Shown here in pieces: positions 104 through 55,846 of a stretch of 64,000 nt of DNA. How positions within the stretch are numbered: position 1 is the stretch's first letter; each line of letters begins with the position of its first letter. The DNA comes from Pseudobacter ginsenosidimutans. GTDB taxonomy: Bacteria > Bacteroidota > Bacteroidia > Chitinophagales > Chitinophagaceae. The notes beneath the pieces were generated by a model, which was not told where the DNA came from, ran no database searches, and saw nothing but the letters and a program-made list of their open reading frames with translations. Location of the stretch: positions 2,914,001-2,978,000 of the forward strand of contig NZ_CP042431.1 in NCBI RefSeq assembly GCF_007970185.1. The letters run 5' to 3'. Made by a program: the position numbers and the translations under genes.

Positions 104-236
104 TGATATAAAAAATCCGGCTGTAAAACGAACCGCGCGGGAGGAGTGATGATTGAACTGTAGTTGGTGTGGTTGGATTGTGATAAATAATTTGGCTCCT
201 TCGCTTACGTTTTCAAGGCCGGAGTTTTTTATATCA
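104..236 (+). repeat. Long-hairpin repeat, copy A
   Basis: The arms 104-121 and 218-236 are complementary over 18 bases apart from one extra C. Inside them AAAACGAACC near 125 faces CGCTTACGTTTT near 202, extending the stem across a T/G-rich loop with TTGG motifs. Copies B, C and D (23987, 24548, 55690) share this core. Similarity to copy B continues about 25 bases past the right arm. The copy sits directly after the stop of the upstream gene and before that gene's likely terminator, so it is probably transcribed as 3' UTR. Confidence 0.75.
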
Positions 237-304
237 CTCGGCTGATGTGCCGGAAAGTGCAGCAGTTCTTAGTGAAGAATGAAAGTTTCCGGATGAATGG
301 ATAA

Positions 305-325
305 AGCCCGCAGCAGCGGGCTTTT
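305..325 (+). terminator. Rho-independent terminator
   Basis: A 7-bp perfect stem, AGCCCGC (305-311) with GCGGGCT (316-322), closes a 4-nt loop and runs into TTTT. It would end transcription of the gene truncated at the window start. Confidence 0.7.
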
Positions 326-403
326 GTGTTTGAAAGGTTGTCCTGATTTATAATTCAGTACAAGCCTTACACCTACAGTACTTCCGGCGGGAACTCATTT
401 GAG

Positions 404-411
404 TAGCTTTG
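404..411 (+). promoter_or_regulatory. Bacteroidota -7 promoter element (TAGCTTTG)
   Basis: This is an exact match to the Bacteroidota -7 consensus TAnnTTTG, 25 bases before the ATG at 437. No clear -33 TTG is seen at the usual distance. Confidence 0.5.
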
Positions 412-436
412 CGTATTCAGTAAATACGTAGCCCAA

Positions 437-2728
437 ATGCAATTAATAAACACCCGGAACATCTTGCCTGTATCATATCAAACTCCTTTCAATTCATTTT
501 TTTTCAACAGGAAATTATTAGCAGGATGCATGTTTGCCATTGCATCGCTGTGCTTTTGTTTGCAGGTGCAGGCTCAGTCATGGGATAAAATGACAGAAGG
601 CCACGACCGGAATGATATCCTGATGGCAGATGATCTGAAAGGATGGAATGTTGGCGCCAATGGTGTGATTGCCTATACCATTAATGGTGGCGTAAGGTGG
701 AACTACCAGCCATCAGGCACGTATGAAACCCTGAACCGGATCTGGAGATTCAATGACAATGATATCTGGGTAGCAGGTAACAATGGCACTATCCTCCACT
801 GGAACGGACAGGCATGGAGTACGCAAACATCCGGCGTTACCACCAATCTCACTGCTATCTGGGGTACAGATCCCAGTCATATCTGGGTGGCGGGCGCGAA
901 TGGTCTGATTCTTTTCTGGAATGGCAGCAGCTGGGCAACGCAAACATCGGGAACAACTGTTCGTCTCACTGGTATCTCCGGAACCGATGCCAGTAATGTT
1001 TGGGTATCCGGAGAGTCCGGCACCATCCTCAAATGGGACGGTAGCAGCTGGACGCCGCAATCTTCGGGCACGGGCAATCACCTCAATGATATATGGGCAT
1101 TCGATAATGATCATTTATGGGCAGTGGGTATATCAGGCACGGTATTGAAGTTCGATGGTACTTCATGGTCCCGCCAATCAGCCAATGCTGCCGGTGTGAT
1201 TATGCGTGTAACTGGAACTTCCGCTACCAATGTATGGCTTGTAATTCAGGAAGGTGGCGTAATTCAATATAACGGAACTTTCTGGATAAGCCGTAATGCG
1301 ATTGCCGGATTGAGTAGTGTATCCGTAATTGCTGCCAACAAAGTTTGGATCGCCGCTGCCAATGGCATGGTGCTCAAGTATAGCGGATCAGGCTTTTCCA
1401 TTCAAACAGAATCATTGGGTGATAATACCATCGCCATCTGGGGTACCAGTTCCACTAATATATGGGTTGCCAATCAAACTGACGTTCTTCAGAAATGGGA
1501 TGGAACTTCCTGGACCAGGTATAATACTCCGTTTCTGGGTAAATATAAAAGCCTCTGGGGCTATAGTAATACTGAGTTCTACGGCGCTTCCCATACCGGC
1601 AATATTATTTTGAAAAGTTTTGATTGGGTAGGCATGAATTTGTTCACCATGCATAATCTCAATTGTGTATGGGGATTGAATCAAACCTTTGTTTGGGCTG
1701 TGGGTGATAATGGTACGGTCAGAAAACGTGCAGTTCCTTACTGGGATGCCTATTATGCAGGCCCCGATCATTTGTATAAGATCTGGGGCACAGATGGGAA
1801 CAATATTTGGACGGTTGGCGCCAATGGTGGTATCTACAAGTTGACTGGAACAACTTTTACAAGAGAGGCTTCAGGAGTAAGCCAGCAACTGAATGCCATT
1901 CACGGAACAGATGCCAATAATGTTTGGGTAGCAGGAAAAGCCGGCACCATCCTGCATTGGGATGGCAGCACCTGGACGCAAATTGTTTCCGGTACAACCG
2001 TTGATCTCGCTGATATTTTCGTGAATGCTACAAATGATGTGCTGGTAGTAGGTACTGGCGGCACCATACGTCGTTGGAATGGCAGCATTTGGCAAACAGA
2101 AGTATCCAACACCAACAAAAACCTGACGGGCATTACCAAACTGGATGGCACAACCTATATCATTGGTGAAAAAGGATTGGTGATGACCTACTCCTCTGCT
2201 ACGCTCCCGCTTCGTTTAACTGCATTCACCGGTTACAGGAATAAGAGCAGTAACCGGATTGAATGGAAAACAGCGGATGAATCCAATACCAGCTTATTCT
2301 CCGTTGAAAGAAGTTCAGATGGCAGGAGCTATTCGGCAATCGCTTCCATTCCTGCCAAGGGGCAGGGGAACGGAATATATTCTTATGATGATCATTTCCC
2401 GGGTACAGGCAGCGCTACACTTTACTATCGGTTACAAATGATCGATAAGGACGGCGCCTTCACTTACAGCAAAGTGATTGTATTGAAAACCCCGGCAAAT
2501 GAAAGGATCATTGCTTATCCTAATCCGGTGAAGGATATCGTTACCATTGCCTTGCCAGATCGGCAACTGCTCAATACCAGCGCAATATTAACGGATGTCA
2601 ATGGCAGGAGGGTAAGAGAAATTACCATCACGCGTCAGCATCAGTTGATCGAAATGGGTGGGCTGTCTGCCGGGTTGTATATGCTCCGGTTTAGTAATGG
2701 CAAAACCATCGGCTTGCAAAAACAGTAA
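437..2728 (+). CDS. Secreted beta-propeller protein with type IX secretion sorting domain
   Basis: The 763-residue protein has a long n-region and a hydrophobic core at about 27-43 ending near QAQS, which looks like a signal peptide. Residues ~50-580 are many ~40-residue repeats of the form IWVAGNNGTILHWNG followed by W-T-Q-SGT and an LTxIWGT turn, like the Ycf48/BNR-type blades of beta-propellers. An FN3-like segment (~590-685) follows. The last ~75 residues carry YPNPVKD and end in the GLYMLRF pattern of a type A T9SS sorting domain, so it is probably exported and attached to the cell surface. The ligand is unknown; such repeats bind proteins or glycans. An internal start at Met32 would shorten the n-region. 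The downstream gene is convergent. Confidence 0.85.
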   Translation: MQLINTRNILPVSYQTPFNSFFFNRKLLAGCMFAIASLCFCLQVQAQSWDKMTEGHDRNDILMADDLKGWNVGANGVIAYTINGGVRWNYQPSGTYETLNRIWRFNDNDIWVAGNNGTILHWNGQAWSTQTSGVTTNLTAIWGTDPSHIWVAGANGLILFWNGSSWATQTSGTTVRLTGISGTDASNVWVSGESGTILKWDGSSWTPQSSGTGNHLNDIWAFDNDHLWAVGISGTVLKFDGTSWSRQSANAAGVIMRVTGTSATNVWLVIQEGGVIQYNGTFWISRNAIAGLSSVSVIAANKVWIAAANGMVLKYSGSGFSIQTESLGDNTIAIWGTSSTNIWVANQTDVLQKWDGTSWTRYNTPFLGKYKSLWGYSNTEFYGASHTGNIILKSFDWVGMNLFTMHNLNCVWGLNQTFVWAVGDNGTVRKRAVPYWDAYYAGPDHLYKIWGTDGNNIWTVGANGGIYKLTGTTFTREASGVSQQLNAIHGTDANNVWVAGKAGTILHWDGSTWTQIVSGTTVDLADIFVNATNDVLVVGTGGTIRRWNGSIWQTEVSNTNKNLTGITKLDGTTYIIGEKGLVMTYSSATLPLRLTAFTGYRNKSSNRIEWKTADESNTSLFSVERSSDGRSYSAIASIPAKGQGNGIYSYDDHFPGTGSATLYYRLQMIDKDGAFTYSKVIVLKTPANERIIAYPNPVKDIVTIALPDRQLLNTSAILTDVNGRRVREITITRQHQLIEMGGLSAGLYMLRFSNGKTIGLQKQ

Positions 2729-2757
2729 GTCCTGCTGTATAATGGAAGGGATGAAAA

Positions 2758-3309
2758 TTAATTCAGCTGAGGATCTGTTGGGTAGTTGGCCATCATCTCG
2801 TAGTCGCCGCCCAGTTCTTTCAGGGCGTCTTTCCAGATTTCTTCTATTTTTTTGTGGAATACAAGTTTGCGGGTAGCCTGTGCAGTGAGCCAGGATTTTT
2901 CCTTCAGCTCATCATTGAGCTGGCCATTACCCCAGCCGGAATAACCGATGAAGAAACGGATCTTGTTGAGATCGAGAGAGCCTTCTTTGATGAGGGAAAT
3001 GGCTGTTTCAAAATCTCCACCCCAGTAAATGCCATCCATTACCTGGAAGCTGCCAGGGATCAATTCAGGGTATTGATGAAGGAAATGAATAGTGTCCATC
3101 TGAACCGGACCGCCATAATAAACGGGGAGCTTGAGTTCTTCCAGATCGTTCATCAGCTCGTCAAGTGTATGATTGAAGGTCTTATTGATCACGAAACCAA
3201 AACTGCCTTCTTCCTGGTGATCGCACAAAAAAACCACTGTTCTCATAAAATTGGGATCCTTGAGAAAGGGCTCTGCTATCAACAACGTACCTGGACCGGG
3301 AACTATCAT
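2758..3309 (-). CDS. yqgE: YqgE/AlgH family protein (UPF0301)
   Basis: The protein has 183 residues, the usual length for this family. It opens with GTLLIAEPFLKDPNF and continues with RTVVFLCDH and GSFGFVINK, the diagnostic UPF0301 blocks; a YYGGPV motif and a FIGYSGWGNGQL motif follow in the expected order. The cytoplasmic family is widespread, but its biochemical role is unsettled (AlgH was linked to alginate regulation in Pseudomonas). It is a single gene convergent with the beta-propeller gene. On the minus strand TTTTG, 18 bases and TAATTTAG lie just before the start, an imperfect Bacteroidota promoter. Confidence 0.93.
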   Translation of the reverse strand: MIVPGPGTLLIAEPFLKDPNFMRTVVFLCDHQEEGSFGFVINKTFNHTLDELMNDLEELKLPVYYGGPVQMDTIHFLHQYPELIPGSFQVMDGIYWGGDFETAISLIKEGSLDLNKIRFFIGYSGWGNGQLNDELKEKSWLTAQATRKLVFHKKIEEIWKDALKELGGDYEMMANYPTDPQLN

Positions 3310-3466
3310 ATTTCTAAATTAAGACTTATATATTATTGACAAAATGATTGTTTAAAAAAAGAAAGGTTGCTCAAAACTTACTAAGTTAGCGGCGCGGCAC
3401 TGATAAATCTTAGTTAAAAGGAATCGTCTTCATTTAGTTGATTCCTGCCGTTCATCACCAGTTCAT

Positions 3467-3474
3467 TAAATTTG
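3467..3474 (+). promoter_or_regulatory. Bacteroidota -7 promoter element (TAAATTTG)
   Basis: Exact TAnnTTTG match, 47 bases before the first possible histidine kinase start at 3522. Confidence 0.5.
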
Positions 3475-3521
3475 CCGATTGAAATTACCTGCTGAGGAAA
3501 ATGATCTGACTTCCCTAACCA

Positions 3522-4955
3522 ATGGGATTGCTGCCGGTGGACAGGATGCGGGTAATGACAGCGACCACAAAAACATATCATTTGCAACTAAGGAAAATAT
3601 TTCCTGTGATCATTGTACTGATCAGCTTATCGCTGATCGGAACGATCTACGTACAGTATAACTGGCTGCTTACCATGGAAGCAGAAAAGCAGCACGAATT
3701 CAAATCGAAGCTGGTGAAGTCCATGGGCGAAGTGGCCAACTCACTGATGGAGCAGAAAAGCACCCTGCCTACGCTCAAGACCTTCAGAAATAAACCAGGT
3801 CTCACCTGGCCCTCCGAACAGTTCCGGCTGGAGCTGATGAAGCCGCCAACCATCGCGCAAAAATTCACTGAATTTGAAGTGCAGGAAAAACTGCAGAAAG
3901 CATTCGATAACCAGGAAGGTTTGAAAGGCATCAAATTCGAGTTCGCTATCACGGCCAACGTGAACCTGATGCACTACGAACTTAAATCCGCCAATTTCCT
4001 CAATCTCTGGCAGGACACAGTGAACAACCTGCAACTGGTCTACTATTTCCAGCCCGAAAGCGGTTCCGACCTGGAGAACCTGGTGCCGGAAGAAGTGATG
4101 ATGGTGGTAGTTCCCAACGTGAAGAAACTGGTACTGAAACAAATGAGATGGATGATCATCGGGGCCATCTTCTTCACCATCGTGATCATTCTTGCATTCT
4201 ATGTTACCGTGGCCGCACTGATACGTCAAAAGAAAATGAGTGAGATCAAGAACGATTTCATCAACAACATGACGCATGAGTTCAAAACGCCACTGGCCAC
4301 CATATCTCTTGCAGTGGATGCACTACGGAACGAAAAAGTGCTGCAGGACCGCCAGAAGATGGAATATTTCAGCGGCATCATCAAGGAAGAGAACAAGCGG
4401 ATGAACAAGCATGTGGAAACCATCCTCCAGGCCGCTGTGATGGACCGCCAGGAATTACAACTGGCCAAGCGCCCAGTGCATATGCATGAATTGCTCAACG
4501 ATATTATCGACGATTATACTTTACGGCTCCAGGAAAAGCAGGGTAGTGCTGAATTGCAGCTTAATGCACGCAGGGACCTGGTGGAAGCCGATCCCGTGCA
4601 TTTCAGGAATCTTTTTTCCAATCTCATAGACAATGCAGTAAAATACTCCAACGATAATCTTTTCATCAGGATCACCACACACAGCACCAATAAGAACCTG
4701 GTTGTACGTGTTGAAGACAATGGTATCGGTATGAGCAAGGAAACCGTGCGCCGGATCTTTGAAAAATTCTACCGCGCCCATACCGGAAATATTCACAACG
4801 TGAAAGGCTTCGGTCTTGGTCTCAGCTACGTGAAAACCATGGTGGACGCGCATCACGGGAAGATCAAGGTGGATAGCACACTGGGCAGGGGCTCTGTGTT
4901 CACGCTCGAGTTTCCCCTGTTGAAAGAAACAGCTGTTGATCCTGAAATGGCCTAG
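3522..4955 (+). CDS. Two-component sensor histidine kinase
   Basis: A 477-residue membrane kinase. TM1 lies at about 27-48 and TM2 at about 210-235, with a ~160-residue periplasmic sensor between them that I cannot assign. The H-box (NNMTHEFKTPLA, phosphoacceptor His near residue 252) is followed by the N-box NLIDNAVKYS, G1 VEDNGIGMS, the F-box IFEKFYRA and G2 GFGLGLSYVK, so the catalytic core is complete. Starts at 3546 or 3555 would remove 8 or 11 N-terminal residues and are equally plausible. No response regulator lies beside it, so the partner is encoded elsewhere. Its stop overlaps the stop of queA on the other strand by four bases. Confidence 0.92.
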   Translation: MGLLPVDRMRVMTATTKTYHLQLRKIFPVIIVLISLSLIGTIYVQYNWLLTMEAEKQHEFKSKLVKSMGEVANSLMEQKSTLPTLKTFRNKPGLTWPSEQFRLELMKPPTIAQKFTEFEVQEKLQKAFDNQEGLKGIKFEFAITANVNLMHYELKSANFLNLWQDTVNNLQLVYYFQPESGSDLENLVPEEVMMVVVPNVKKLVLKQMRWMIIGAIFFTIVIILAFYVTVAALIRQKKMSEIKNDFINNMTHEFKTPLATISLAVDALRNEKVLQDRQKMEYFSGIIKEENKRMNKHVETILQAAVMDRQELQLAKRPVHMHELLNDIIDDYTLRLQEKQGSAELQLNARRDLVEADPVHFRNLFSNLIDNAVKYSNDNLFIRITTHSTNKNLVVRVEDNGIGMSKETVRRIFEKFYRAHTGNIHNVKGFGLGLSYVKTMVDAHHGKIKVDSTLGRGSVFTLEFPLLKETAVDPEMA

Positions 4956-6178
4956 TGCCTGAAGAGCAAACAGCCGTCTCCATAACTCAGAAAACGGAAT
5001 CCATTCGACAACGCATAATGGTAGATCTCCTTCCATTTTGGACCGGCAAATGCCGCTACCAGTAACAGTAATGTAGATTGTGGCTGATGGAAATTGGTGA
5101 CCAGCGCATGAGGGATACGGATGGAATAGCCCGGTGCTATCAGCAGTTGTGTGCGGGTTAGCAACCTGTTCAAACCTTTTTGTTCGAGATACTTTAAAAG
5201 CGCTTCCAGCGCGGCTTTTGCAGGAATATCCCCTTTCATTTCATAGGCATCCCATTGTTGAACACTCAGTTCTTCTGGCTGGATGTCTGGCTGTGCCATT
5301 ACTTTGCTCCCCAGCCAGTAGAGCGATTCGATGGTGCGTAGTGAAGTGGTGCCTACAGCTGTAATATGCGTATCGATATGGTCAATTAGATTTCGTATAC
5401 TCTCCACCGTTACATCAATGAATTCGATATGCATTGGATGCCCTTCCAGTGTGCCGGATTTTACCGGCTGGAAAGTGCCTGCGCCAACATGCAGTGTAAC
5501 AAAGCTTCTCTTGATATTCCTTGCATCCAGTTTTTGAAAGATGGTATCCGTGAAATGCAGGCCGGCCGTGGGCGCAGCTACTGAGCCTTCATGTTTTGCA
5601 TAGATGGTCTGGTAGCGGTCTTCATCTGTCTGTTCCGCTTTCCTTTTGATATAGGGAGGAAGTGGCATCACGCCGGCCAGGTGCAGCACTTCCGCGAAGC
5701 TGAGATCCGGTTCGTTCCAGCTTAGTTCGATGGCAAAGCTGTCTTTTATCTTTTCAATATAAGCGGCGTGCAGCTTGAGTTCTGTGCTGCCATGCGGAAT
5801 CTTTTTTTCTAAGATGTTTCCGGGTTTCCATTTCGAGACGCCGCCAACGAGGCACATCCAGGTGACAGATCCGCGTGTACTCATGGCCGTGGTGATATCC
5901 GGGTATTTTGCATGTGGTTCCAGGCAGAAGATCTCTATTGTGGCGCCGGTTATTTTTTGAAAGAGCAGTCTGGCTGCCACCACGCGTGTGTTATTGAAAA
6001 CGAGTAAGGAGTTGGAAGGAAGATATTGATCGAGGTTACGGTAAATATCTTCACTGATTGTTTCTTCTTGCCAGATGAGTAAACGTGATGCATCCCGGTT
6101 GGGCAGGGGATATTTGGCGATCAGTTCTTCGGGTAGATCGTATGTGAAATCTTTGATAGCTATTTCTTTGGGGTGCAT
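4952..6178 (-). CDS. queA: S-adenosylmethionine:tRNA ribosyltransferase-isomerase QueA
   Basis: QueA transfers and isomerises the ribosyl group of SAM onto 7-aminomethyl-7-deazaguanine in tRNA, forming epoxyqueuosine. I place the start at the ATG whose complement ends at 6178, giving 408 residues that begin MHPKEIAIKDFTYDLPEEL. The frame stays open upstream to 6412, but those 78 residues are not QueA-like. Diagnostic blocks include LIAKYPLPNRDASRLL, NNTRVVAARL, EGSVAAPTAGLHFT, LHVGAGTFQPVK and ALVTNFHQPQSTLLLL. It is slightly longer than the ~350-residue E. coli enzyme, as is usual in Bacteroidota. It is transcribed divergently from mraZ across a 397-base control region. Confidence 0.95.
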   Translation of the reverse strand: MHPKEIAIKDFTYDLPEELIAKYPLPNRDASRLLIWQEETISEDIYRNLDQYLPSNSLLVFNNTRVVAARLLFQKITGATIEIFCLEPHAKYPDITTAMSTRGSVTWMCLVGGVSKWKPGNILEKKIPHGSTELKLHAAYIEKIKDSFAIELSWNEPDLSFAEVLHLAGVMPLPPYIKRKAEQTDEDRYQTIYAKHEGSVAAPTAGLHFTDTIFQKLDARNIKRSFVTLHVGAGTFQPVKSGTLEGHPMHIEFIDVTVESIRNLIDHIDTHITAVGTTSLRTIESLYWLGSKVMAQPDIQPEELSVQQWDAYEMKGDIPAKAALEALLKYLEQKGLNRLLTRTQLLIAPGYSIRIPHALVTNFHQPQSTLLLLVAAFAGPKWKEIYHYALSNGFRFLSYGDGCLLFRH

Positions 6179-6224
6179 GCGCGCAAAGGTAAGGCGGAGC
6201 CGCTGACGACACCCTGCAATCCCT

Positions 6225-6268
6225 CCCACTTTTCCCCCACTTTTCTCCCTTTTTCCAAAAACTCCACC
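6225..6268 (-). repeat. 11-bp-period array (AAAGTGGG type)
   Basis: Two near-identical 11-mers (CCCACTTTTCC, CCCACTTTTCT) are followed by two decayed units (CCCTTTTTCCA, AAAACTCCACC). On the minus strand the core reads AAAAGTGGG. The array lies in the likely 5' leader of queA. Confidence 0.5.
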
Positions 6269-6364
6269 CAATCCCATCAAATTGAGATTTCCATTTTTCC
6301 GGTTCCAAAGTGGAAAACGATACAATTCTGATCCCTTGATTTTGAAGAGATAGCAGCGCCGATG

Positions 6365-6411
6365 CACAGGATACGCACAGGTTTTGCCCGTGAATCCACA
6401 GGAAATCCACA
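6365..6411 (+). repeat. Helically phased CACAGG repeats
   Basis: CACA occurs at 6365, 6376, 6397 and 6408, and three copies continue as CACAGG. The steps are 11, 21 and 11 bases, so all sites lie on one face of the helix. On the minus strand they read TGTGGA or TGTGC. They are also within two mismatches of DnaA boxes (TTATCCACA), so DnaA is an alternative ligand. Confidence 0.45.
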
Positions 6412-6516
6412 AAAAGCTCTAAGGTTTTTAACATGTGAGGGTGAAATGCAGGCTGGTAGCGGGTTTGAAATATGCAAGCCTGTGGAAAAATTAAATTTTC
6501 CAATTCTCTCCACGGC

Positions 6517-6546
6517 TGTGGGAAAATGTGTTATTTTGTGTTTATA
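6517..6546 (+). promoter_or_regulatory. Candidate MraZ operator: three TGTG repeats, 10-bp period
   Basis: TGTGGGAAAA, TGTGTTATTT and TGTGTTTATA follow each other without gaps, ending 29 bases before the mraZ ATG. In E. coli, MraZ represses its operon by binding three direct repeats with the same 10-bp period; spacing and position match here, but the box sequence is not identical. The perfect dyad at 6483-6502 lies just upstream. Confidence 0.55.
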
Positions 6547-6575
6547 AATGGGAGTAAGGCATTTATCCGCTGTAA

Positions 6576-7052
6576 ATGATTGAATTTCTGGGAGAATATG
6601 AGGCTACGTTGGACGCCAAAGGGCGTTTCCTTCTACCGGCTGCCCTTAAAAAGCAGATTCCGGAAGAAGCGGGGACCCAGTTTGTGATCAACAGAGGTTT
6701 TGAAACCTGCCTTGTGTTATATCCCACGCTGAGCTGGAAGCCAATATTTTCCAGGTTAAGCAAATTGAATGATTTCGACCCCAAGGTACGCGAATTCAGG
6801 AGAAAGTTCCTGAACGGCGCCACCAACATCGAGTTGGATTCTGCGGGTCGCTTACTAGTTCCACCCAATCTGAAGGAATATGCAGGATTGGATAAAGACA
6901 TTGTGGTGGTTTCTGCCGTAAACAAAATCGAGATCTGGGATAAAGTTAAGTACCAACAGTTCTTTGAATCTTCTTCATCTGACAATTTCAGTCAACTGGC
7001 ACATCAGGTGATGGCAGGCGCCGACAGTGCCCCATCCGACCTAGAGTTATGA
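6576..7052 (+). CDS. mraZ: Transcriptional regulator MraZ
   Basis: The 158-residue protein has two AbrB/SpoVT-like swapped-hairpin repeats. The first carries the family motif ATLDAKGRFLLPAAL (about 10-24) and the second ELDSAGRLLVPPNLKEYAG (about 88-106). MraZ forms a ring-shaped oligomer that binds phased repeats and represses the dcw operon. It is the first gene of the cluster, with phased TGTG repeats 30-60 bases upstream, which suggests autoregulation. The stop overlaps the rsmH start (ATGA), implying translational coupling. Length is normal for the family. Confidence 0.97.
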   Translation: MIEFLGEYEATLDAKGRFLLPAALKKQIPEEAGTQFVINRGFETCLVLYPTLSWKPIFSRLSKLNDFDPKVREFRRKFLNGATNIELDSAGRLLVPPNLKEYAGLDKDIVVVSAVNKIEIWDKVKYQQFFESSSSDNFSQLAHQVMAGADSAPSDLEL

Positions 7053-23057: not shown

Positions 23058-23993
23058 ATGCAAACAGTTCTCATTACAGGAGGCACCGGCCTGGTAGGGT
23101 CCGCACTTACCCGATTGCTGGTGAACAAAGGTTACCAGGTGATCATCCTCACACGCAGGTCAAAGCCCGCAGAAGGCGCTGTGTCCTACGCCGAATGGGA
23201 TCCTGCTGCCGGAACCATCGACGTCAAAGCTGTGCAGCAGGCCGATATGATCGTTCACCTGGCGGGCGCCAATGTGGGCGAGAAACGCTGGACAAAAAAG
23301 AGAAAACAGGAAATCCTCGATAGCCGTGTAAAGAGTGCCAACCTCATCGTTCAAACGCTTCAATCGAATCCCAATAAATGTCGTGCCGTGATCAGCGCCT
23401 CTGCCATCGGCTGGTATGGTGATGATAATCTGCGTCCGGCAGGTAAAACCATGTTCACCGAAGAAGCGCCTGCCGACACGCAATACCTTGGCGCCACCTG
23501 CAAGGAATGGGAAGAAAGTATCCAGCCAGTCACGGCCATGGGTAAGCGCCTTGTGATCCTCCGCTCGGGCATCGTACTCAGTAACCATAGCGGCGCATTC
23601 CCCAGTTTCAAGAAGCCTGTGAAAATGGGATTTGCTGCTATTCTCGGCAATGGCAGACAGGTGATCAGCTGGGTCCATATCGAAGACGCTGCGCGCCTCT
23701 ATCTCTTCGCCATCGAAAACGAACATCTCCAGGGCATCTTCAACGCAGTAGCACCGCAGCCCGTCACCAATGAACATCTCACTGTCACACTCGCCCAGAA
23801 AATGAAGGGCAAATTCTATATCTCCATCAATGTTCCTTCATTCCTTCTGAAGATCATCCTCGGCGAAATGAGTGTGGAAGTTCTGAAAAGCGCCACTGTC
23901 AGCAGCGCGAAAATCAGTAAGGCCGGGTTCCAGTTCCTGTATCCAACGATTAATGTGGCCATAGATAGCCTCATAGGTCGCCTCAGGGTATAA
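23058..23993 (+). CDS. TIGR01777-family NAD(P)-binding epimerase-like protein
   Basis: The 311-residue extended SDR protein has the N-terminal nucleotide-binding VLITGGTGLVGSALTRLL (about 4-21), AGANVGEKRWTKKRK, the SASAIGWYGD block replacing the usual catalytic YxxxK region, and FNAVAPQPVTNEHL near the C-terminus. These are hallmarks of the TIGR01777/SDR39U1 (YfcH, SULA-related) family, whose substrate is not known. It has its own promoter. Its stop codon lies inside the left arm of hairpin repeat copy B. Confidence 0.9.
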   Translation: MQTVLITGGTGLVGSALTRLLVNKGYQVIILTRRSKPAEGAVSYAEWDPAAGTIDVKAVQQADMIVHLAGANVGEKRWTKKRKQEILDSRVKSANLIVQTLQSNPNKCRAVISASAIGWYGDDNLRPAGKTMFTEEAPADTQYLGATCKEWEESIQPVTAMGKRLVILRSGIVLSNHSGAFPSFKKPVKMGFAAILGNGRQVISWVHIEDAARLYLFAIENEHLQGIFNAVAPQPVTNEHLTVTLAQKMKGKFYISINVPSFLLKIILGEMSVEVLKSATVSSAKISKAGFQFLYPTINVAIDSLIGRLRV

Positions 23994-24120
23994 AAAATCC
24001 GGCTGCAAAACGAACTGGCGCGGGAGAATAAGTATTTGACTGTGGTTGGTTGGATTGGGGTTTGGTAATTCTATTGGACTGTTTCGCTTACGTTTTGAAG
24101 GCCGGAGTTTTTTTACACCC
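23987..24120 (+). repeat. Long-hairpin repeat, copy B
   Basis: The arms 23987-24004 and 24101-24120 pair through TATAAAAAATCCGGC-type sequence. The outermost three bases are GGG/CCC where copy A has TGA/TCA, a compensatory change. The inner GCAAAACGAACTGGCGCG and TTCGCTTACGTTTTGAAGG blocks match copy A closely. It begins at the stop codon of the epimerase gene and has the same orientation. Confidence 0.8.
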
Positions 24121-24706
24121 TTCGGCTGATGGTGTCGCGGGTGCATCAGTGTTGATAGATAGGTAGCAAGGGCGTCATTTCTTTTGTTTGGGTACTTTTT
24201 GTTTGAGCAATTATCTCGGTTGTTGATTCTTTGCGTTGTTTCAAATGTGAGAAGAAGATTTGACTTTTGTGTTTTGGATGAAGAACTGGCTCTGCTGTTG
24301 GAAAAAAATCAGGGAGTTTAAGTGGCAGATAATGCACATTGCTTTTGATTGGGGTGATTTGAGTTGTTTTTTATTTTTCTCTTTTACACGTCTGGATCGC
24401 AAAGTATGGACGGAGTGTTGCGTTACTGATGTTCTTCTGCGAGTTGAAAACAATATTGCTTTTGTGAAATACTATTGATGGTTGATGGAGTTTTAGTAGT
24501 GTATTATATCCTCAACCAAAACTGTTGCAATATTATCGTGCTGGAGGCGAAGTGATATGATAAGCTGGTCCTGGAAACAAAAGCGAAAAAGCCTGGCTCA
24601 GCACTACATTCACATTCAACCAACCAAAGCCCAATACCACCACAAATGCGCGGGTTTGTTTCCCAACCAGCGTTCATATCCTTCGCCGACTCTCAAAGAA
24701 AAAAAA
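23994..24706. other. Convergent intergenic region with hairpin repeats B and C
   Basis: The 713 bases between the convergent epimerase and metzincin genes hold most of copy B at one end and copy C at the other. The ~425 bases between (24121-24547) are AT-rich. Short frames of 60-100 codons occur on both strands, but none has gene-like composition, a convincing start or a recognisable motif. Confidence 0.65.
24548..24685 (-). repeat. Long-hairpin repeat, copy C
   Basis: Read on the minus strand, the arms (24663-24685 and 24548-24573) pair with small bulges. They have a different sequence from A and B, but the inner core is shared: GGGAAACAAACCCGCGCA on one side and TTTTTCGCTTTTGTTTCC on the other. 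It starts 21 bases after the stop of the minus-strand metzincin gene and runs in the same direction. Confidence 0.75.
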
Positions 24707-25357
24707 TCACCCATGTTTTGAATGATATAAACTACTAAACTCCCCCAAAACCGCAACTCCATTCCCATCAAAATCAAGCTTGTTCAACTTCAGATCCGCA
24801 ACATCGGTGAGTAAGACTCTCCGCCATTGCGGGTCCAGCGTGCCTCCCTTCGCCCCTGGTGTTGCGTTGGGATCGTACTGGTATTGCGGATCACAGAGAG
24901 TGCCACGTGGGAACATGATGCCCGGAGCGCCTTTGCCGCGTATGTCGAGATTGGTGGGGTGTTCCAGACCAAGCGTATGTCCATACTCGTGAGCGGCAGT
25001 AGTGGCGGTTTGTTTCAGGTTGGCGAGTTTGAAGTAGCCGGTATTGCTGCCAAGCCCATCAACGAAGGAAATATCGAGATTGCTGAACTCTTCGATGCGG
25101 AAGAAATTGAGACGGGGGTTATCATTGTACCAGACCTTTTCCGGAGGGAGATCGGGTTGGTAACTGCCTTCGATCTGAAAGCGGAGGAGGAATTCCTGAT
25201 CTTTTATTTTGATGATGGCTTTCGGTTCGTTCCAGATAAAAGCGATATCATCTGCCATTTGCTGTGCCAGCGTTTGATCGGCGGCGTCGCCATAAATGAT
25301 GATACTGGAGTGAATGGTCAGTGTGGCGTTGGTATGATCGAGTGAGGCTTCTCCCAT
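24707..25357 (-). CDS. Metzincin-type zinc metalloprotease-like protein
   Basis: The 216-residue protein contains AAHEYGHTLGLEH (about 132-144), an exact HExxHxxGxxH zinc motif, with PGIMFPRG about 14 residues later as the expected Met-turn; together these define a metzincin fold (matrixin/M10-like). The region before it (about 10-120) is beta-rich and without recognised motifs. No signal peptide is visible at the ATG chosen. In-frame codons upstream (25358-25393) encode a short hydrophobic run (IFFTIFI) but contain no ATG, GTG or TTG before the stop near 25451. The protein is thus either cytoplasmic or its start is misread. The C-terminal LDFDGNGVAVLGEFSSL resembles a dockerin-like or EF-hand DxDGNG loop. 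Confidence 0.75.
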   Translation of the reverse strand: MGEASLDHTNATLTIHSSIIIYGDAADQTLAQQMADDIAFIWNEPKAIIKIKDQEFLLRFQIEGSYQPDLPPEKVWYNDNPRLNFFRIEEFSNLDISFVDGLGSNTGYFKLANLKQTATTAAHEYGHTLGLEHPTNLDIRGKGAPGIMFPRGTLCDPQYQYDPNATPGAKGGTLDPQWRRVLLTDVADLKLNKLDFDGNGVAVLGEFSSLYHSKHG

Positions 25358-48019: not shown

Positions 48020-48046
48020 AGATTTGTTAGCTTTTTTTAGTTGAAA

Positions 48047-48114: not shown

Positions 48115-48131
48115 CTCTTAATTTTTGTCTG

Positions 48132-48587: not shown

Positions 48588-48616
48588 TCGTTATGCGACT
48601 AAACTGATTCACATAT

Positions 48617-48656
48617 AAACGGGTTCTTTATTTATTGAAGACCCGTTTTTATTTTT
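48617..48656 (+). terminator. Terminator between the two DsbD-related genes
   Basis: AAACGGGTTCTT (48617-48628) pairs with GAAGACCCGTTT (48637-48648) and is followed by a T-rich tail. Confidence 0.8.
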
Positions 48657-48678
48657 TGCACCCGTATAATCCATCGTA

Positions 48679-50694
48679 ATGAAGCAATTTATTACCCGGT
48701 CGCTTGCGTTCCTACTATTAACGTTTGTGTCTCTTGGCGTCTGGGCTCAGGACTCCTCCCAGGTTAAGCTCTCTTATTCTTCTGAAAGATTGAATGACAA
48801 AGAAGTTCTCCTCACCATCAAAGCCGTAGTGGTGGGTGAAGGAAAGAAATTGTATTCTGTAAACAAACCATCGGAAGAGTCTGTGAACTCTACGGTGGAG
48901 TTTGATAGTTCAGTATTAAAATTCTTCAAGGATCCCCTGATTGAAAAGGGGAATGTGAAGACTGAGAAAGATTCCGAACTGGAAGTGGATGTAAAATATG
49001 TAACCGATAGTCTGGTTTGGCAGCAGAAAGTATCGCTTGCGGATACCATTACCAAAGCATTCGATGGGAAAGTAAGTTACTTCATCAAGGATGGAAATGA
49101 ATTTAAAAGCGGTGAAGCTGTGTTCAGCATCACTGCAAAAAAAGCTGGTGGAGAGAAAGCTGATAAGGCAGCATCCGAAACAGCAGCAACAGAAGAAGAG
49201 AAAGAGCCTGAATCTTTATGGGAGTTCTTTCTCGTGGGGCTCATTGCTGGTATCGGTGCATTCATCATGCCCTGTATCTATGCAATGGTGCCTGTAACTG
49301 TGAGCTTCTTCACCAAGCGCAGCACCAGCCGCGCTGCTGGTATCAAGAATGCACTTATCTATTCTCTATCTATCATTCTTATTTATACACTACTTGGATT
49401 TTTGATCACACTGATCTTCGGGCCAGGTGCATTGAATGAAATGGCGAGCAGTGCTGTGTTCAATATTTTCGTGTTTGTGATGTTTGTGGTATTCGGTATC
49501 TCCTTCCTCGGTGCATTTGAAATTACATTGCCTGCATCATGGAGTAATAAGATAGACAGTAAATCCAATTTTGGTTCTGTATCGGGGCTTTTTTTCATGG
49601 CACTTACACTGGTAATAGTTTCTTTCAGTTGTACAGTTCCTTTCATTGGAACGCTTACTGCGTATACTGCCAAGGGTGGGTCTATGGCCGCTCCGCTGGT
49701 TGGATTTTTCGGTTTCTCATTCGCGTTAGCAATGCCTTTCGCACTCTTCGCGTTCTTCCCTGCATTGCTGAACAAAATGGGTAAGTCCGGTGGATGGTTA
49801 AATACAATCAAAGTAGCACTCGGCTTTATCGAATTGGCACTCGCATTGAAATTCCTGAGCAGCGCTGATCTGGCTTACCACTGGGGTATCCTGGACCGTG
49901 AGGTGTATCTTTCACTGTGGATCGTGATCTTTGGTCTGTTGGGACTTTATCTGCTTGGTAAACTCAGGTTCCATCATGACAATGATCTTCCGCTGAATGA
50001 TTATGGCAAGCCATATCTCACTGTAACAAGATTGTTCTTTGCGATAGCTGCGCTTTCTTTCACAGTATTCCTGATCCCTGGTTTGTGGGGAGCTCCTCTG
50101 AAAGGATTGAGCGCATGGTTGCCTGAAATGAAAACACAGGATTTCAACCTTGCTGAAGCAAGAACAGCAACTGTATCATATGCTGAAGGTGGAGCAGAAG
50201 ACAAGAACAGAGTGAAACCTGTAAAATATACAGACTTCCTCAAATCTGAAATTCCGGGAGTAGATGCATTTTTCGACTATAAGGAAGCGCTAGAAGCCGC
50301 TAAGAAAATGAATAAACCTTTAATGGTAGACTTCACTGGTCATAGCTGCGCCAACTGTCGTAAGATGGAGCAAGAAGTATTGAATGATCCTGAAGTGATG
50401 AAGAGATTAAGTCAGGATTTTGTGGTGGTGTCTCTTTATCAGGATGATAAATTCCGTTTACCTGATGAAGAAAGATTTGAATCGAAGCATGGTCTTGGTA
50501 CCATCAAGGATATCGGTAATCTGAACAAAGAGATATCTCTCGAGATGGTGAGCAGTCTTGCTCAACCTCTCTATGTATTTGTTGATACCGATGGAACTGT
50601 TATCAAGAATGCAGGAGGATACAAAGCTGATATTCCAAGATTTGTGAAGATCCTGGATGAAGTGAAGGAAGCCTTCAAAGCAAAACACAAGTAA
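48679..50694 (+). CDS. dsbD: DsbD-like thiol:disulfide interchange protein with cysteine-free N-terminal domain
   Basis: DsbD carries electrons from cytoplasmic thioredoxin to the periplasm. The 671-residue protein has a signal peptide (about 1-23), an N-terminal DsbD-alpha-like domain (to about 155), eight transmembrane helices with the paired cysteines in FIMPCIYAMVPV and VSFSCTVPFIGT, and a C-terminal thioredoxin-like domain with the CxxC motif in FTGHSCANCRKMEQEVL (about 554-558). In the N-terminal domain the stretch matching the CNxxQC motif of the upstream gene reads YFIKDGNEFKSGEAVFSI, with no cysteine. The upstream stand-alone protein may therefore provide this relay step. Confidence 0.92.
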   Translation: MKQFITRSLAFLLLTFVSLGVWAQDSSQVKLSYSSERLNDKEVLLTIKAVVVGEGKKLYSVNKPSEESVNSTVEFDSSVLKFFKDPLIEKGNVKTEKDSELEVDVKYVTDSLVWQQKVSLADTITKAFDGKVSYFIKDGNEFKSGEAVFSITAKKAGGEKADKAASETAATEEEKEPESLWEFFLVGLIAGIGAFIMPCIYAMVPVTVSFFTKRSTSRAAGIKNALIYSLSIILIYTLLGFLITLIFGPGALNEMASSAVFNIFVFVMFVVFGISFLGAFEITLPASWSNKIDSKSNFGSVSGLFFMALTLVIVSFSCTVPFIGTLTAYTAKGGSMAAPLVGFFGFSFALAMPFALFAFFPALLNKMGKSGGWLNTIKVALGFIELALALKFLSSADLAYHWGILDREVYLSLWIVIFGLLGLYLLGKLRFHHDNDLPLNDYGKPYLTVTRLFFAIAALSFTVFLIPGLWGAPLKGLSAWLPEMKTQDFNLAEARTATVSYAEGGAEDKNRVKPVKYTDFLKSEIPGVDAFFDYKEALEAAKKMNKPLMVDFTGHSCANCRKMEQEVLNDPEVMKRLSQDFVVVSLYQDDKFRLPDEERFESKHGLGTIKDIGNLNKEISLEMVSSLAQPLYVFVDTDGTVIKNAGGYKADIPRFVKILDEVKEAFKAKHK

Positions 50695-50709
50695 GCACTG
50701 GCTTCAGAT

Positions 50710-50749
50710 AATAAAAGGGCGCAATCGAATAGATTGCGCCCTTTTATTA
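50710..50749 (+). terminator. Terminator of dsbD
   Basis: AATAAAAGGGCGCAATC is followed after six bases by its near-perfect complement, GATTGCGCCCTTTTATT. The A/T flanks make it usable in both directions. Confidence 0.85.
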
Positions 50750-50799
50750 TTGCTCTAGAATGTAGTGATGGCAAAGGTTATAGCGAATTGTAAAGTATA

Positions 50800-50831
50800 T
50801 AAAACCCCGCTTTACTCAAGCGGGGCTTCAC
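50800..50831 (-). terminator. Terminator on the sigma factor side
   Basis: CCCCGCTT (50805-50812) pairs perfectly with AAGCGGGG (50818-50825) around a 5-nt loop. On the minus strand the stem runs into TTTTATA, so it would stop transcripts from the sigma factor gene. Confidence 0.7.
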
Positions 50832-51124
50832 AATTAGGCGTCATTCTGTTCCAGCCTTCTGACCAGCAAGCAAATCAGTGAAAAAGTCTGATGGAGGACC
50901 AGAATGACAATATTTTCCAGTTAATTTCTTTCAAATTTAAAGTGTGTATCCGTTCCCTTTTTACGGTTACCGTTAATCTTTTGCAAAGAAATGGTACTGG
51001 TTGAGTCAAATTCTATTCATCGTTCTTCTCTGAAAAATAGGCTTCGTACTGTCTATTTTTCTCAATTCTTTTTGTTGAACAAGAGGTTCAGTGAAAAGTT
51101 CAATGGCTTTGAAAAATTGCGTGC

Positions 51125-51706
51125 TTATAAAGCGATCTTTTTTTGCGTCATCATCTTGCGCAGGTTGATCAGGCCGTAACGCATTCTTCCCAAAGCCGTG
51201 TTGATACTGCAATTGGTGAGAGATGCGATCTCTTTGAAGCTCATGTCTGCATAATGACGCAGAATGATCACTTCACGCTGATCGTCTGGCAGCAGGTCCA
51301 GCATCTGACGAACCCTGTCGTAACTTTGACGTTTCATCATTTTCTGATCTGCACCATCTTCCGTAAAATTGATCACTTCGAAAATGTCACGGTCATCACT
51401 TGTTTTGATAGCCGGTGTTCTTTTTACTTTTCTGAAATGGTCTACACACAGATTGTGTGCAATGCGCATTGCCCAGGGCAGGAACTTTCCTTCCTCAGTG
51501 TAACGGCCGCTACGGATTGTGTCGATGATTTTGATAAGCACATCCTGGAAGATATCCTCAGCGAGGTATTTGTCTTTTACGAGGAACAGGATGGAAGTGT
51601 ACATTTTGTCTTTGTGACGGAGAATCAACGTTTCAAGGGCATAGAGATCCCCATCCTGGAAGTCCTGGATGAGTTCATGGTCGGTCTTTTTGCGTAGTAA
51701 ATTCAT
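51125..51706 (-). CDS. ECF-type RNA polymerase sigma factor
   Basis: The 193-residue sigma-70 family factor has region 2 (HKDKMYTSILFLVKDKYLAEDIFQDVLIKII, then LPWAMRIAHNLCVDHFR) and region 4 (LLPDDQREVIILRHYADMSFKEIASLTNCSINTALGRMRYG) joined by an acidic linker, with no region 3. No anti-sigma factor is encoded beside it, so control is probably not by a neighbouring membrane partner. It is divergent from uvrA across 337 bases. Confidence 0.94.
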   Translation of the reverse strand: MNLLRKKTDHELIQDFQDGDLYALETLILRHKDKMYTSILFLVKDKYLAEDIFQDVLIKIIDTIRSGRYTEEGKFLPWAMRIAHNLCVDHFRKVKRTPAIKTSDDRDIFEVINFTEDGADQKMMKRQSYDRVRQMLDLLPDDQREVIILRHYADMSFKEIASLTNCSINTALGRMRYGLINLRKMMTQKKIAL

Positions 51707-52043
51707 AAACTTCTACGGGTTTTGAAGGTTATAGGATATATATAAATGGATTTTATTGGTTAGGTCGGCTTTTCAGTGTAGAAGTAACTAAATCAATAGG
51801 CTGTAATGTTTGGTGAAGTTTTTATTGTCGGTTTAGTAAATTAAAGATAGAGACTTTTTTGAAATAAGCAAACTTTAACCATATTTTTAAAACATTTGCA
51901 TACTATTGAATATGACTTATTTAACATAGATCAAATTGCTTGATTTAAGTCAAATTCCGGGGCGATTCCGTTAAACTTTCTGCCTTCCCATATGTAGTAT
52001 ACAATATTCTCCCGATTGCAATAATTTTGTGCTCCATTATAAT
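51707..52043. other. Sigma factor-uvrA divergent intergenic region
   Basis: These 337 AT-rich bases separate two divergent genes. The uvrA -7 element is at 52022-52029. On the sigma factor side I see only AT-rich sequence with TATATATA and no convincing TAnnTTTG. No gene or repeat is seen. Confidence 0.55.
52022..52029 (+). promoter_or_regulatory. uvrA promoter -7 element (TAATTTTG)
   Basis: Exact TAnnTTTG match 14 bases before the uvrA ATG at 52044, implying a very short leader. A GTG at 52029 inside the element is therefore not the start. Confidence 0.55.
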
Positions 52044-54848
52044 ATGACAGTTACTACCAAAAAGAGCAAAGCCACTTCCAAAAAGGCCGGACCTCCCAAT
52101 ATACAAGACAGCATTTATGTTCAAGGCGCACGCGTACATAACCTGAAAAATGTTTCAGTGAGTTTCCCGCGCAACAAGTTCATTGTGGTGACAGGTGTTT
52201 CCGGATCAGGAAAATCATCGCTCACCATCGATACACTTTTTGCAGAAGGACAACGTCGCTACGCAGAAAGCCTCAGCGCATACGCACGCCAGTTCATGGC
52301 CAGGATGGTGAAGCCGGATGTAGACTTCATCAAGGGACTTTGTCCTGCCATCGCCATCGAACAGAAAGTGATCACACGCACACCGCGCTCCACGGTCGGC
52401 AGCATGACAGAGGTCTATGATTATCTCCGCCTTTTGTTCGCACGCACAGGAAAAACCATCTCACCCGTCTCCGGACAGGAAGTGAAGAAAGATGATGTGG
52501 CCGATGTGATCGAAGCCATCAAAAAACAGAAGGCGGGCGACAAAGTGCTCATGCTGATCCCCTTCAAACAACACAAGAACCGTAAGCCACAGGAAGAATT
52601 GAATATTCTCCTGCAGAAAGGTTTCACCCGTATCTACGATGGCGAAGTGCAAAGCATCGAAGACCTGCTGGAAGCAAAAAGCTGGAAGCCTGCTAAAGAA
52701 ACTTATGTGCTGGTGGACCGGATGATAGTGAAGGATTTTGATGAAGATGATATTCATCGCATGGGAGATTCCATCGGCACCGCTTTCTATGAAGGCGAAG
52801 GCAGCATGGTGATTGAAATAAATGGTTCAGTCAAACGAACCTTCTCCAATAAATTTGAACTGGACGGCATCGTATTCGAAGAGCCGGTACCCAATCTCTT
52901 TTCATTCAACAATCCATTCGGTGCCTGCCCTACCTGCGAAGGCTTCAGCCAGGTACTGGGGATCGATGCGGATCTGGTGATCCCGGACAAACGTTTAAGC
53001 GTATACGAAATGGCCGTTGCTCCCTGGAAGGGCGATAAGCTCGGCTGGTGGAGGGATCAATTCATCAAAGGTGCGCGCAAGTTCGATTTCCCCATTCATA
53101 AGCCTGTTATCGATCTTACAAAAGATCAATACACTACACTCTGGCAGGGAAATGAATTTGTACAGGGCATCAATGATTTCTTCCGTGAAGTGGAAGCCAA
53201 TCTGTATAAAGTGCAGTACAGGGTATTGCTGAGCCGCTATCGCGGAAGAACGCAATGCCCGGATTGTAATGGTTACCGCCTTCGCAAGGAAGCGCTCTAT
53301 GTAAAAGTAGGCGGCCTGCATATCGGTGAGCTTTGTGAAATGCCTGTTCGTGATCTGCAACAATGGTTTGCTGATCTGAAACTGAGTGTGTATGATCAAC
53401 AGGTAGCCAAACGTATTCTCATCGAGATCAATCATCGTCTGAAAACTTTGATGGATGTTGGTCTCGGTTATCTCACACTGAACCGTCTCGCCAATTCATT
53501 GAGCGGCGGCGAAAGCCAGCGTATCCAGCTGACCCGCTCACTGGGCAGTAATCTCACCAACTCATTGTACATCCTGGATGAGCCGAGCATCGGCCTCCAC
53601 TCACGCGATACTGAAAGATTGATCCGCGTATTGAAAGAACTGCGTGATCTCGGCAATACTGTAGTTGTTGTTGAGCACGATGAACTGATGATGCGTGAAG
53701 CTGATCATATCATCGATATGGGCCCGCTGGCTTCACATCTCGGAGGAGAAGTAGTGGCAGCAGGAAATTACGATGAGATCATCAATAACGAGAACAGCCT
53801 TACAGGAAAATACCTCAAAGGTGAAATGACCATCGATGCGCCGAAGACCGTTCGCAAGTGGACGCGCTCCATCAAAGTGGAAGGAGCTCGTCAGAACAAC
53901 CTGCAGAATGTTACAGCCGAGTTTCCGCTGAATACCTTCACGGTAGTAAGTGGTGTGAGCGGAAGCGGCAAGACCACACTGGTGAAACAAATTCTTTATC
54001 CCGGTCTGCAAAAGATCAAGGGAGAGTTTGCTGATAAAGTGGGATTGCATAAAAGCATTACAGGAGATATCGATCTGATTGCGCAGGTCGAGATGGTGGA
54101 CCAGAACCCCATTGGTAAATCTTCCCGCTCCAACCCGGTAACTTATATCAAAGCATACGATGAGATCCGCGATCTCTACGCCAAACAACCGCTCAGCAAA
54201 ACACGCGGCTTCCAGCCCAAACATTTCTCCTTCAACGTAGACGGAGGAAGATGCGACGCCTGCAAAGGTGAAGGCGAACAAATTGTGGAAATGCAGTTCC
54301 TCGCGGATGTGCATCTCACCTGTGAAGTTTGCGGTGGAAAGAAATTCAAGGAAGAAGTGCTGGAAGTACAATACAAGGGCAAGAGCATCTATGATATCCT
54401 TGAGCTCAGTGTTGATGAAGCGCTGGAATTCTTTGCAGCAGAAAAAGACATAGTGAACCGTGTGCGTCCTCTGAGCGATGTGGGATTGGGCTATGTAAAA
54501 CTGGGGCAATCATCCGATACGCTCTCCGGTGGTGAGGCGCAGCGTGTGAAGCTGGCTTCTTTCCTCGGCAAAGGAAAAGGGCAGGGACAGATCCTATTCA
54601 TCTTCGACGAACCTACTACTGGTTTACATTTCCACGATATCCGCAAATTGCTGGCGAGCTTCAATGCGCTGATCGAGCAGGGGCATAGCATCCTGGTGAT
54701 TGAGCACAATACAGATGTGATCAGGAGTGCGGACTGGGTGATCGATCTCGGCCCTGAAGCCGGCGATGGCGGCGGCACTATCGTGTATGCCGGCGTTCCA
54801 TCAGGATTGAAAAAAGTGAAAGAAAGCTATACAGGAAAATTCCTGTAA
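52044..54848 (+). CDS. uvrA: Excinuclease ABC subunit A (UvrA)
   Basis: UvrA recognises DNA damage in nucleotide excision repair. The ~934-residue protein has two ABC modules: Walker [21 protein letters not shown] near the N-terminus and [15 protein letters not shown] in the second half, with ABC signatures [13 protein letters not shown] and [13 protein letters not shown]. Zinc modules include CPTCEG and CPDCNG in the first half and [10 protein letters not shown] with CEVCGG in the second. The order matches canonical UvrA. The short N-terminal [11 protein letters not shown] stretch is basic. It has its own promoter and terminator. Confidence 0.97.
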
Positions 54849-54866
54849 GCTGAAAGCAAAATAGTG

Positions 54867-54910
54867 AACAGGCCGGGGTTGTTAAGTCTCCGGCCTGTTT
54901 CCTTTTTTTG
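54867..54910 (+). terminator. Terminator of uvrA
   Basis: AACAGGCCGG (54867-54876) pairs perfectly with CCGGCCTGTT (54890-54899), followed by a long T-run. Confidence 0.85.
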
Positions 54911-54930
54911 GGGGCAGCTGCCCAGTAACC

Positions 54931-54986
54931 CGCCTCCGGCGAGTGACCTGTATTAGTTCGCCTCCGGCGCACACCCTGTACTTTAA
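54931..54986 (+). repeat. Two tandem 28-bp units headed by CGCCTCCGGCG
   Basis: CGCCTCCGGCG occurs at 54931 and 54959, exactly 28 bases apart. The rest of each unit is partly similar (about 18 of 28 bases in all, sharing CCTGTA). Each head can fold as GCC-TCC-GGC. It lies between the uvrA terminator and the next gene. Confidence 0.5.
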
Positions 54987-55038
54987 CTTTTCTACCTCTT
55001 CCTCTTATCTTTTCTTTGCTTCACAATTCAGCGCTGAT

Positions 55039-55542
55039 ATGTTCCGAATTCTACTTTTCTTCTTTTTCATTTTTTCTGTTCATTTTTCCAATGCGCAGCA
55101 GGTTACTGTTGCCGAGTTGAGGAAGTTCATGGACTATGATCATTTCCGCATCGATACCACGCTTAAAAAGAGAGGCTATCTTTTGATGCAGAAAGATATC
55201 GACTCTACCAGCTCCCTCTATCAATACTCGCATATCGATCATAAGGAGGATGATAAAGATGGCAGGCCTACCGTTATCCGTTCGGTGCAATACATGGATG
55301 TGAATACCGAGAAATACAGCAGCCGCCTTCTCACTTACCGGACCTACGACAAAGATGAATACAAAGACATTTCCGTGTACCTGCTCTCACACAATTTCAG
55401 GTGTACCGAGAAATACAATTTCCAGGGAGCCGAGAATCTCGTATATAACAGTGGGGATCAAACGATCCGGATCAAGATCTTCACCACGCCGATGGGAGAT
55501 GGCCGGAAGTTCACGGCCTATGAAGTGGAGCTGGGAAAATAA
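55039..55542 (+). CDS. Small secreted protein of unknown function
   Basis: The 167-residue protein has a strong signal peptide (FRILLFFFFIFSVHFSNAQQ, about 2-21). The mature part is soluble, charged and has one cysteine; phrases such as LRKFMDYDHFRIDTTLKKRGY and a RTYDKDEYKDI strand suggest an alpha/beta fold. I do not recognise the family. The start is set at 55039 because a normal signal peptide begins there; the frame is open upstream to 54943. Confidence 0.75.
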   Translation: MFRILLFFFFIFSVHFSNAQQVTVAELRKFMDYDHFRIDTTLKKRGYLLMQKDIDSTSSLYQYSHIDHKEDDKDGRPTVIRSVQYMDVNTEKYSSRLLTYRTYDKDEYKDISVYLLSHNFRCTEKYNFQGAENLVYNSGDQTIRIKIFTTPMGDGRKFTAYEVELGK

Positions 55543-55689
55543 TTTCGCTTAACACGTTTCTATATAAAAATGGCGGCCAAACGGTCGCCTGTTTTTTTCC
55601 TAAAACCATTCTACGAAGTACAAAAAAATTTACCCTTACTCAAGCCTGCTGCACCTTTACCACCATAAAGCTGCCCCGGAGGGAGATTC

Positions 55690-55846
55690 GCAAATGGCGT
55701 GGGGGGATGTTATTGGAGGCCTTCGAAACAAAAGCTCCAAAGCTCAACAATGAACAGCAGCTCATCCTTCGCACCAAAGTAAAAAGATTATCCAACTGCG
55801 CTGGTTTGTTTCACAGTCTCCAATAACATCCCCCCACGACATTTGC
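55690..55846 (-). repeat. Long-hairpin repeat, copy D, with 29-bp near-perfect arms
   Basis: The arms 55690-55718 and 55818-55846 match at 28 of 29 positions and include a GGGGGGATGTTATTGGAG run. Read on the minus strand, the inner core GTGAAACAAACCAGCGCA and GGAGCTTTTGTTTCGAAGG is shared with copy C and, more distantly, A and B. The orientation is that of the minus-strand DUF4293 gene, 58 bases upstream in transcription, but a terminator lies between them. Confidence 0.8.

Follow-up and report, generated by a model that had tools for sequence, protein, structure and literature searches.

The 64,000-nucleotide window analyzed here (Pseudobacter ginsenosidimutans, contig NZ_CP042431.1, positions 2,914,001 to 2,978,000) carries four copies, A to D, of a long hairpin element that recurs throughout the genome. 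From sequence comparison we put at about one half the probability that these hairpins belong to an old, genus-specific family of giant REP/BIME-like DNA palindromes, retained as border elements of genes and acting at the DNA level. The host is described as a soil bacterium, its genus belongs to the Chitinophagaceae, and the elements adjoin genes both in the host and in its relatives. The purpose of REP-like palindromes is a long-standing question. A family that stays in the same places, with stems that covary without RNA wobble, makes it possible, by genome comparison, to distinguish selection on DNA structure both from RNA-level selection and from mutation bias.

Fold, covariation and distribution

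Each unit has a long stem peculiar to its locus, a T/G-rich core of about 60–80 nt that the units share and a short 3' tail. The stem has a median of 43 outer pairs and a span of about 236 nt. It contains a conserved uneven internal loop with CTG on the left side and AAGG on the right side, and the conserved tail after each hairpin ends in TGCRNCA. The outer 5' (gene-facing) arm is partly duplicated in tandem in 5 of 115 P. ginsenosidimutans copies and 4 of 109 copies of a relative, genome G004 (for example at loci L058 and L119 of the host, genome G000, and L155 of G004); none of these copies has such a duplication on the 3' side. Judged by eye, the insertions and deletions in the core speak against a coding role.

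The initial annotation of the window had placed four copies with a conserved inner part, and all four are found there, fold better than dinucleotide shuffles (Table 1) and align in their inner blocks and core. Its proposal that the inner stem changes on both sides together holds over 113 copies. In 12 modeled pairs, 94.0% of cells are paired, compared with 77.8% after shuffling, and 260 cells are two-sided changes, compared with 92 (none of 500 shuffles reaches this value). When the partner is shifted by one column, pairing falls to 39–51%. Columns 33/139 are GC in 65 copies and AU in 40, columns 37/135 are CG in 89 and UA in 21, and columns 38/134 are AU in 76 and GC in 34. This alignment was fitted to the model, and the outer arms were therefore scored separately, outside the modeled pairs. 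These arms differ between copies and are nevertheless self-complementary, as had been stated, with a score of 15.35 for own partners and 7.85 (standard deviation 0.20) for shuffled partners.

G004, taken as Pseudoflavitalea rhizosphaerae, was compared with the host. The outer arms of orthologous copies show 77 two-sided changes, 55 of them Watson-Crick, against 17.8 expected if the sides were independent; the count sums both directions, and events with pairing in both genomes are counted twice. Identity is 93.9% in stems, 83.0% in loops, 84.5% in the stretch past the tail (of what aligns) and 71.9% at fourfold sites; 4 of the 104 orthologous copies have too few pairs and are excluded from the stem counts. 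These comparisons support the first reading of the family, in which the hairpins are conserved through their fold and are not a drifting repeat.

Whether that fold is selected as RNA or as single-stranded DNA had been left between the two; the selected fold stands, while the RNA half finds no backing in the stems. A stem selected as a single RNA should prefer G-U. Single stem changes away from Watson-Crick pairing lead to G-T in 142 cases and to A-C in 123 (p = 0.27), and in the outer arms alone to G-T in 111 and to A-C in 98. Standing 1x1 stem mismatches are 25 G-T and 38 A-C in P. ginsenosidimutans, and 19 G-T and 25 A-C in G004; the mismatch folds were computed with G-U pairs forbidden, to avoid favoring either type. 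With no preference for G-U, the stems argue for selection at the DNA level or on both strands, not on one RNA, and an RNA role may exist at some copies.

The search for further copies bears out a dispersed family. The covariance model R1, built from 22 copies, was used at E ≤ 0.001, and copy counts are only lower bounds because the best 150 of 1843 candidates were scored in P. ginsenosidimutans, and likewise in other genomes. There are at least 115 copies in the 7.8-Mb host genome (115 of 119 matches used), at least 109 in G004, at least 110 in G002 and at least 30, diverged, in G001. The model finds nothing in G003 and G005, two further genomes of the genus. In a Chitinophagaceae survey with stricter filters and the best 21 candidates per genome, 3 of 147 drawn genomes match, all from the host genus; G002 is not among the three, presumably because it was not drawn. 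Plain BLAST with copy B finds matches in 4 of 39 relatives, all of the same genus, a count in which the inclusion of the host genome itself is ambiguous. The exact DNA core pattern is found in Pseudoflavitalea rhizosphaerae KACC 18655 and in one Chitinophagaceae metagenome-assembled genome (MAG), presumed to be G002, in a list that possibly omits the window's own genome.

Persistence, facing pairs and exchange of cores

Most copies stay where they are. Of the 115 copies in P. ginsenosidimutans, 104 have a reciprocal-best orthologue in G004, and loci syntenic with host hairpin loci make up 13 of 16 in the MAG and 6 of 9 fetched through hairpin matches in G001. The G001 B locus, fetched through its gene, is also syntenic; directly after the gene it carries a hairpin with good pairing and a mostly different sequence, and the flanking proteins are about 70–72% identical. 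Two of the 11 non-orthologous host places were inspected. At one, G004 holds a different hairpin family instead; at the other, G004 has lost the neighboring stretch and carries the same different family. This second family, about 110 nt long (CAGTCGCTCGCC...GGCGAGCGACTG, with nested hairpins), occurs in 30 of 74 G004 stretches (L258 and L259 overlap), 1 of 77 from the host and 0 of 12 from G001. At three places in G004 (L258 near 4068, L248 near 1372 and L161 near 4174; host counterparts L057, L061 and L058) it stands in place of a hairpin of the first family or breaks into one. The first family offers places where one hairpin family was overwritten by another.

Copies less than 2.5 kb apart always form a facing pair: 38 of 38 in P. 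ginsenosidimutans, 38 of 38 in G004, 36 of 36 in G002 and 6 of 6 in G001 (118 of 118 together). The G002 figure uses 102 of 110 matches, with 8 contig-edge or weak ones excluded. Genes were called by custom scripts, and the analysis of gene context covers 70 of 77 loci, those with a G004 match. By flanking genes, 36 host pairs divide into 16 convergent, 17 one-direction, 2 divergent and 1 unplaced. Gene convergence is ruled out as the reason for facing, since 19 of the 36 do not lie between convergent genes. Between the outer ends of pairs and a called gene the median distance is 36 bp, and 58 of 71 such ends come within 100 bp of one; in 24 of 30 single copies it is the outer end that is closer to a gene (p = 0.0014). 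Outer ends face a gene stop in 69 cases and a gene start in 35. A tRNA gene, tRNA-Cys, was found beside a copy at one of 52 loci scanned.

Spacers between pairs are mostly unrelated, apart from a second short repeat common to some, and so the idea of a pair as a single transposon with an invariant interior is unsupported. Spacers change fast, and those of orthologous pairs are often replaced with the flanks intact. Inverted spacers are seen in none of 36 pairs, some spacers being too diverged to judge. One facing pair of G004 (L126, 4001-6180) has a spacer of 1879 bp, compared with 441 bp in its host orthologue. The longer spacer holds two open frames, 346 and 124 aa long, that the orthologue lacks and that by eye look like GNAT- and ASCH-type proteins.

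Cores and stems differ in how they are inherited. Identities are from global alignment, with a shuffled baseline of 0.559, and for G001 the sequence comparisons draw on 16 of its 30 matches, picked for pairs and high scores. The cores of pair members are more alike than other cores (p = 0.00075 in P. ginsenosidimutans, 0.000019 in G004 and 0.00033 in G001), while their arms are not more alike than other arms (p ≥ 0.3). For 10 of 33 pairs, likeness between the members within one genome exceeds the likeness of either to its orthologue, most clearly in the host pair 912747/913207. Mean identity is nevertheless higher between orthologues of P. ginsenosidimutans and G004 (0.78) than between pair members (0.71), and conversion is therefore too rare to erase orthology between these genomes. 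With G001, loops at 11 orthologous places have an identity of 0.584, compared with 0.595 for random cross-genome loops; loops among copies inside one genome have 0.658 and 0.638. In the arms, orthology is still weakly visible, at 0.629 and 0.684 compared with 0.592 and 0.642. Loops compared with the MAG also show a weak signal, 0.633 compared with 0.606 (17 orthologues, p = 0.04); G002 loops were cut slightly longer than host loops, which lowers cross-genome identity, and only the contrast of orthologous with non-orthologous loops is usable. At one G001 locus (L250, about 300 bp before 1501; orthologue of host 1380775) the arms are similar, the loop has 8 nt and there is no core. Because of this coreless locus and the 11 orthologous places with random-level loop likeness, core and stem appear separable.

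In these small samples, we read the identities as cores occasionally converted or replaced on vertically inherited stems, with independent insertion at the same sites as the weaker alternative. A two-part border system, in which vertically inherited, locus-specific DNA stems carry an exchangeable core that is copied between pair members and genome-wide, perhaps by a dedicated structure-specific enzyme, is a tentative idea that we consider possible and rather doubtful. The facing pairs can serve as natural replicates in measurements of how inverted repeats convert one another.

Competing explanations and known systems

As gene-border elements working as DNA, the stems would fold into hairpins or cruciforms when the DNA is supercoiled or single-stranded, and a structure-specific protein could recognize the uneven CTG/AAGG internal loop. 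The element may cap a transcription unit, whether by taking up supercoiling, by restricting read-through or by retaining a nucleoid or topoisomerase factor. Cores would be copied between facing members by non-crossover conversion or template switching. Several observations weigh against this explanation. Of 355 single stem changes between P. ginsenosidimutans and G004, 243 destroy a pair, so constraint on the stem is incomplete. Loops diverge about as much as the stretch past the tail, which gives no support for a sequence-specific role of the loop. Two genomes of the genus have no match, hence the elements are dispensable for the genus. Part of the two-sided change could come from template switching without selection. 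The size of the elements, the scarcity of a GTAG tag and the missing transposase link make the family REP-like and not REP.

The point on template switching can be taken further: an old burst of mobile palindromes might have no function, with complementarity maintained by template switching in replication. Template switching is reported to make and repair stems (PMC8794818), and tandem duplications confined to the 5' arm suggest replication slippage at the hairpin. Stems, however, are much slower to change than either loops or fourfold sites, and repairing mismatches alone should not cut the total rate so much. The two-sided changes also seem, by eye, scattered rather than blockwise, and we regard absence of function as quite unlikely. 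An RNA-level element, a terminator or a stabilizer of mRNA 3' ends, perhaps read from both strands, is somewhat less improbable to us and still unlikely. Twice as many outer ends face a stop as face a start, many within 40 bp, a T run follows the right arm in copies A and B, and RNA roles are favored in the REP literature as represented by PMC3733652. Against it stand the stems without G-U preference, a core of about 60–80 nt, very long as a loop when intrinsic terminators have a short-loop GC stem and a U run, the absence of a T run in copies C and D, and the roughly one third of outer ends that face a gene start. A mobile unit or exchange site, where a facing pair brackets swapped DNA like a cassette, would account for spacers that are unrelated between pairs and often replaced between orthologous ones, and for the 1879-bp spacer with its GNAT- and ASCH-like frames. 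The copies, however, hardly move, no spacer is inverted among pairs similar enough to tell, no Y1 transposase lies beside the copies and no integron integrase scores over the cut-off; we hold such exchange to be very improbable.

The known elements first named as nearest were REP/BIME and attC, and the former comparison survives while the latter does not. Integron attC sites act as folded DNA in which the self-complementary arms vary and unpaired bases are conserved, and their R boxes read RYYYAAC and GTTRRRY. The folding, the variable arms and the conserved unpaired bases are shared, but attC sites form one-direction arrays, and here copies form facing pairs. R-box pairs occur in 4 of 115 copies compared with a shuffled mean of 3.25, and the integron integrase TIGR02249 is over its cut-off in none of four genomes; attC is ruled out on these two grounds. 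NEMIS/Correia, ERIC and Yersinia palindromic sequences are small palindromic mobile elements. Elements of this kind are about 100–200 bp, intergenic and able to fold, and the parts of PMC2229807 drawn on here mention neither facing pairs nor covarying locus-specific arms, both of which distinguish the present family. Miniature inverted-repeat transposable elements are marked by target-site duplications and recent movement; in the present family, 104 of the 115 host copies sit at orthologous places in G004.

REPs with GTAG or CGTC tags are described as dispersed intergenic palindromes, many in inverted dimers with variable spacers, mostly near gene ends between convergent or one-direction genes; their units are 20–40 bp, and the CGTC type is described as having no dedicated transposase (Di Nocera et al. 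2013, PMC3733652). The likeness lies in high copy number between genes, inverted dimers and proximity to gene ends. The differences lie in the much longer stems and loops, and in a family that keeps its places across species, with covarying stems and homogenized pair cores. GTAG/CTAC near the model ends is found in 12 of 115 copies, a count without a chance control, and is thus not a general tag here. REPIN/RAYT systems have a similar recurrent inverted pair of palindromic units, as far as PMC3116915 and PMC8049555 describe them; the present family differs in its unrelated spacers, little movement and lack of an adjoining Y1 transposase. Y1_Tnp is present in all six genus genomes, two of them without hairpin copies, and at nine Y1 loci no model match lies beside the gene except one at E 0.16. 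No link to a RAYT was found. That no named element fits agrees with Rfam, which gives no family at gathering score in the window, none in 16 loci and none at E ≤ 1 for the B/C locus. Among the papers listed by searches of a library that includes few subscription journals, no title or abstract concerns this hairpin family.

Copies in the window and neighboring genes

The genome-wide model matches at E ≤ 0.001 within the window are exactly copies A to D (Table 1), and B and C form one facing pair. The + gene upstream of A ends 5 bp before the hairpin, and the model match of B overlaps the 3' end of the + gene 23058-23993 by 14 bp. Copy C lies 17 bp past the end of the − gene 24707-25357, and D lies 65 bp past the end of the − gene 55905-56366. 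Copy B is 96% identical to its G004 orthologue, and a paired hairpin also occupies its orthologous place in G001.

Table 1. Positions of hairpin copies, tails and spacer in the window
Feature	Position	Strand	Remarks
Hairpin copy A	97..245	+	R1 model 109.6 bits; fold z −4.78; no nearby partner found
Copy A 3' tail end, TGCAGCA	258..264	+	Pattern match, tails compared
Hairpin copy B, left half of facing pair	23979..24128	+	R1 model 153.4 bits; fold z −2.92 (2 of 200 shuffles equally good)
Copy B 3' tail end, TGCATCA	24142..24148	+	Pattern match
B–C spacer including both tails	24129..24541	.	413 bp; aligns full length with 413-bp G004 spacer
Copy C 3' tail end, TGCAACA	24523..24529	−	Pattern match
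Hairpin copy C, right half of facing pair	24542..24690	−	R1 model 105 bits; fold z −4.10
Copy D 3' tail end, TGCAGCA	55647..55653	−	Pattern match
Hairpin copy D, single	55693..55840	−	R1 model 99.4 bits; fold z −10.21

Positions 157-174, in the core of copy A, resemble by eye the thrombin-binding G-quadruplex aptamer, probably by chance. The product of the gene next to copy C contains HEYGHTLGLEH, which by eye matches the HExxHxxGxxH zinc metalloprotease motif.

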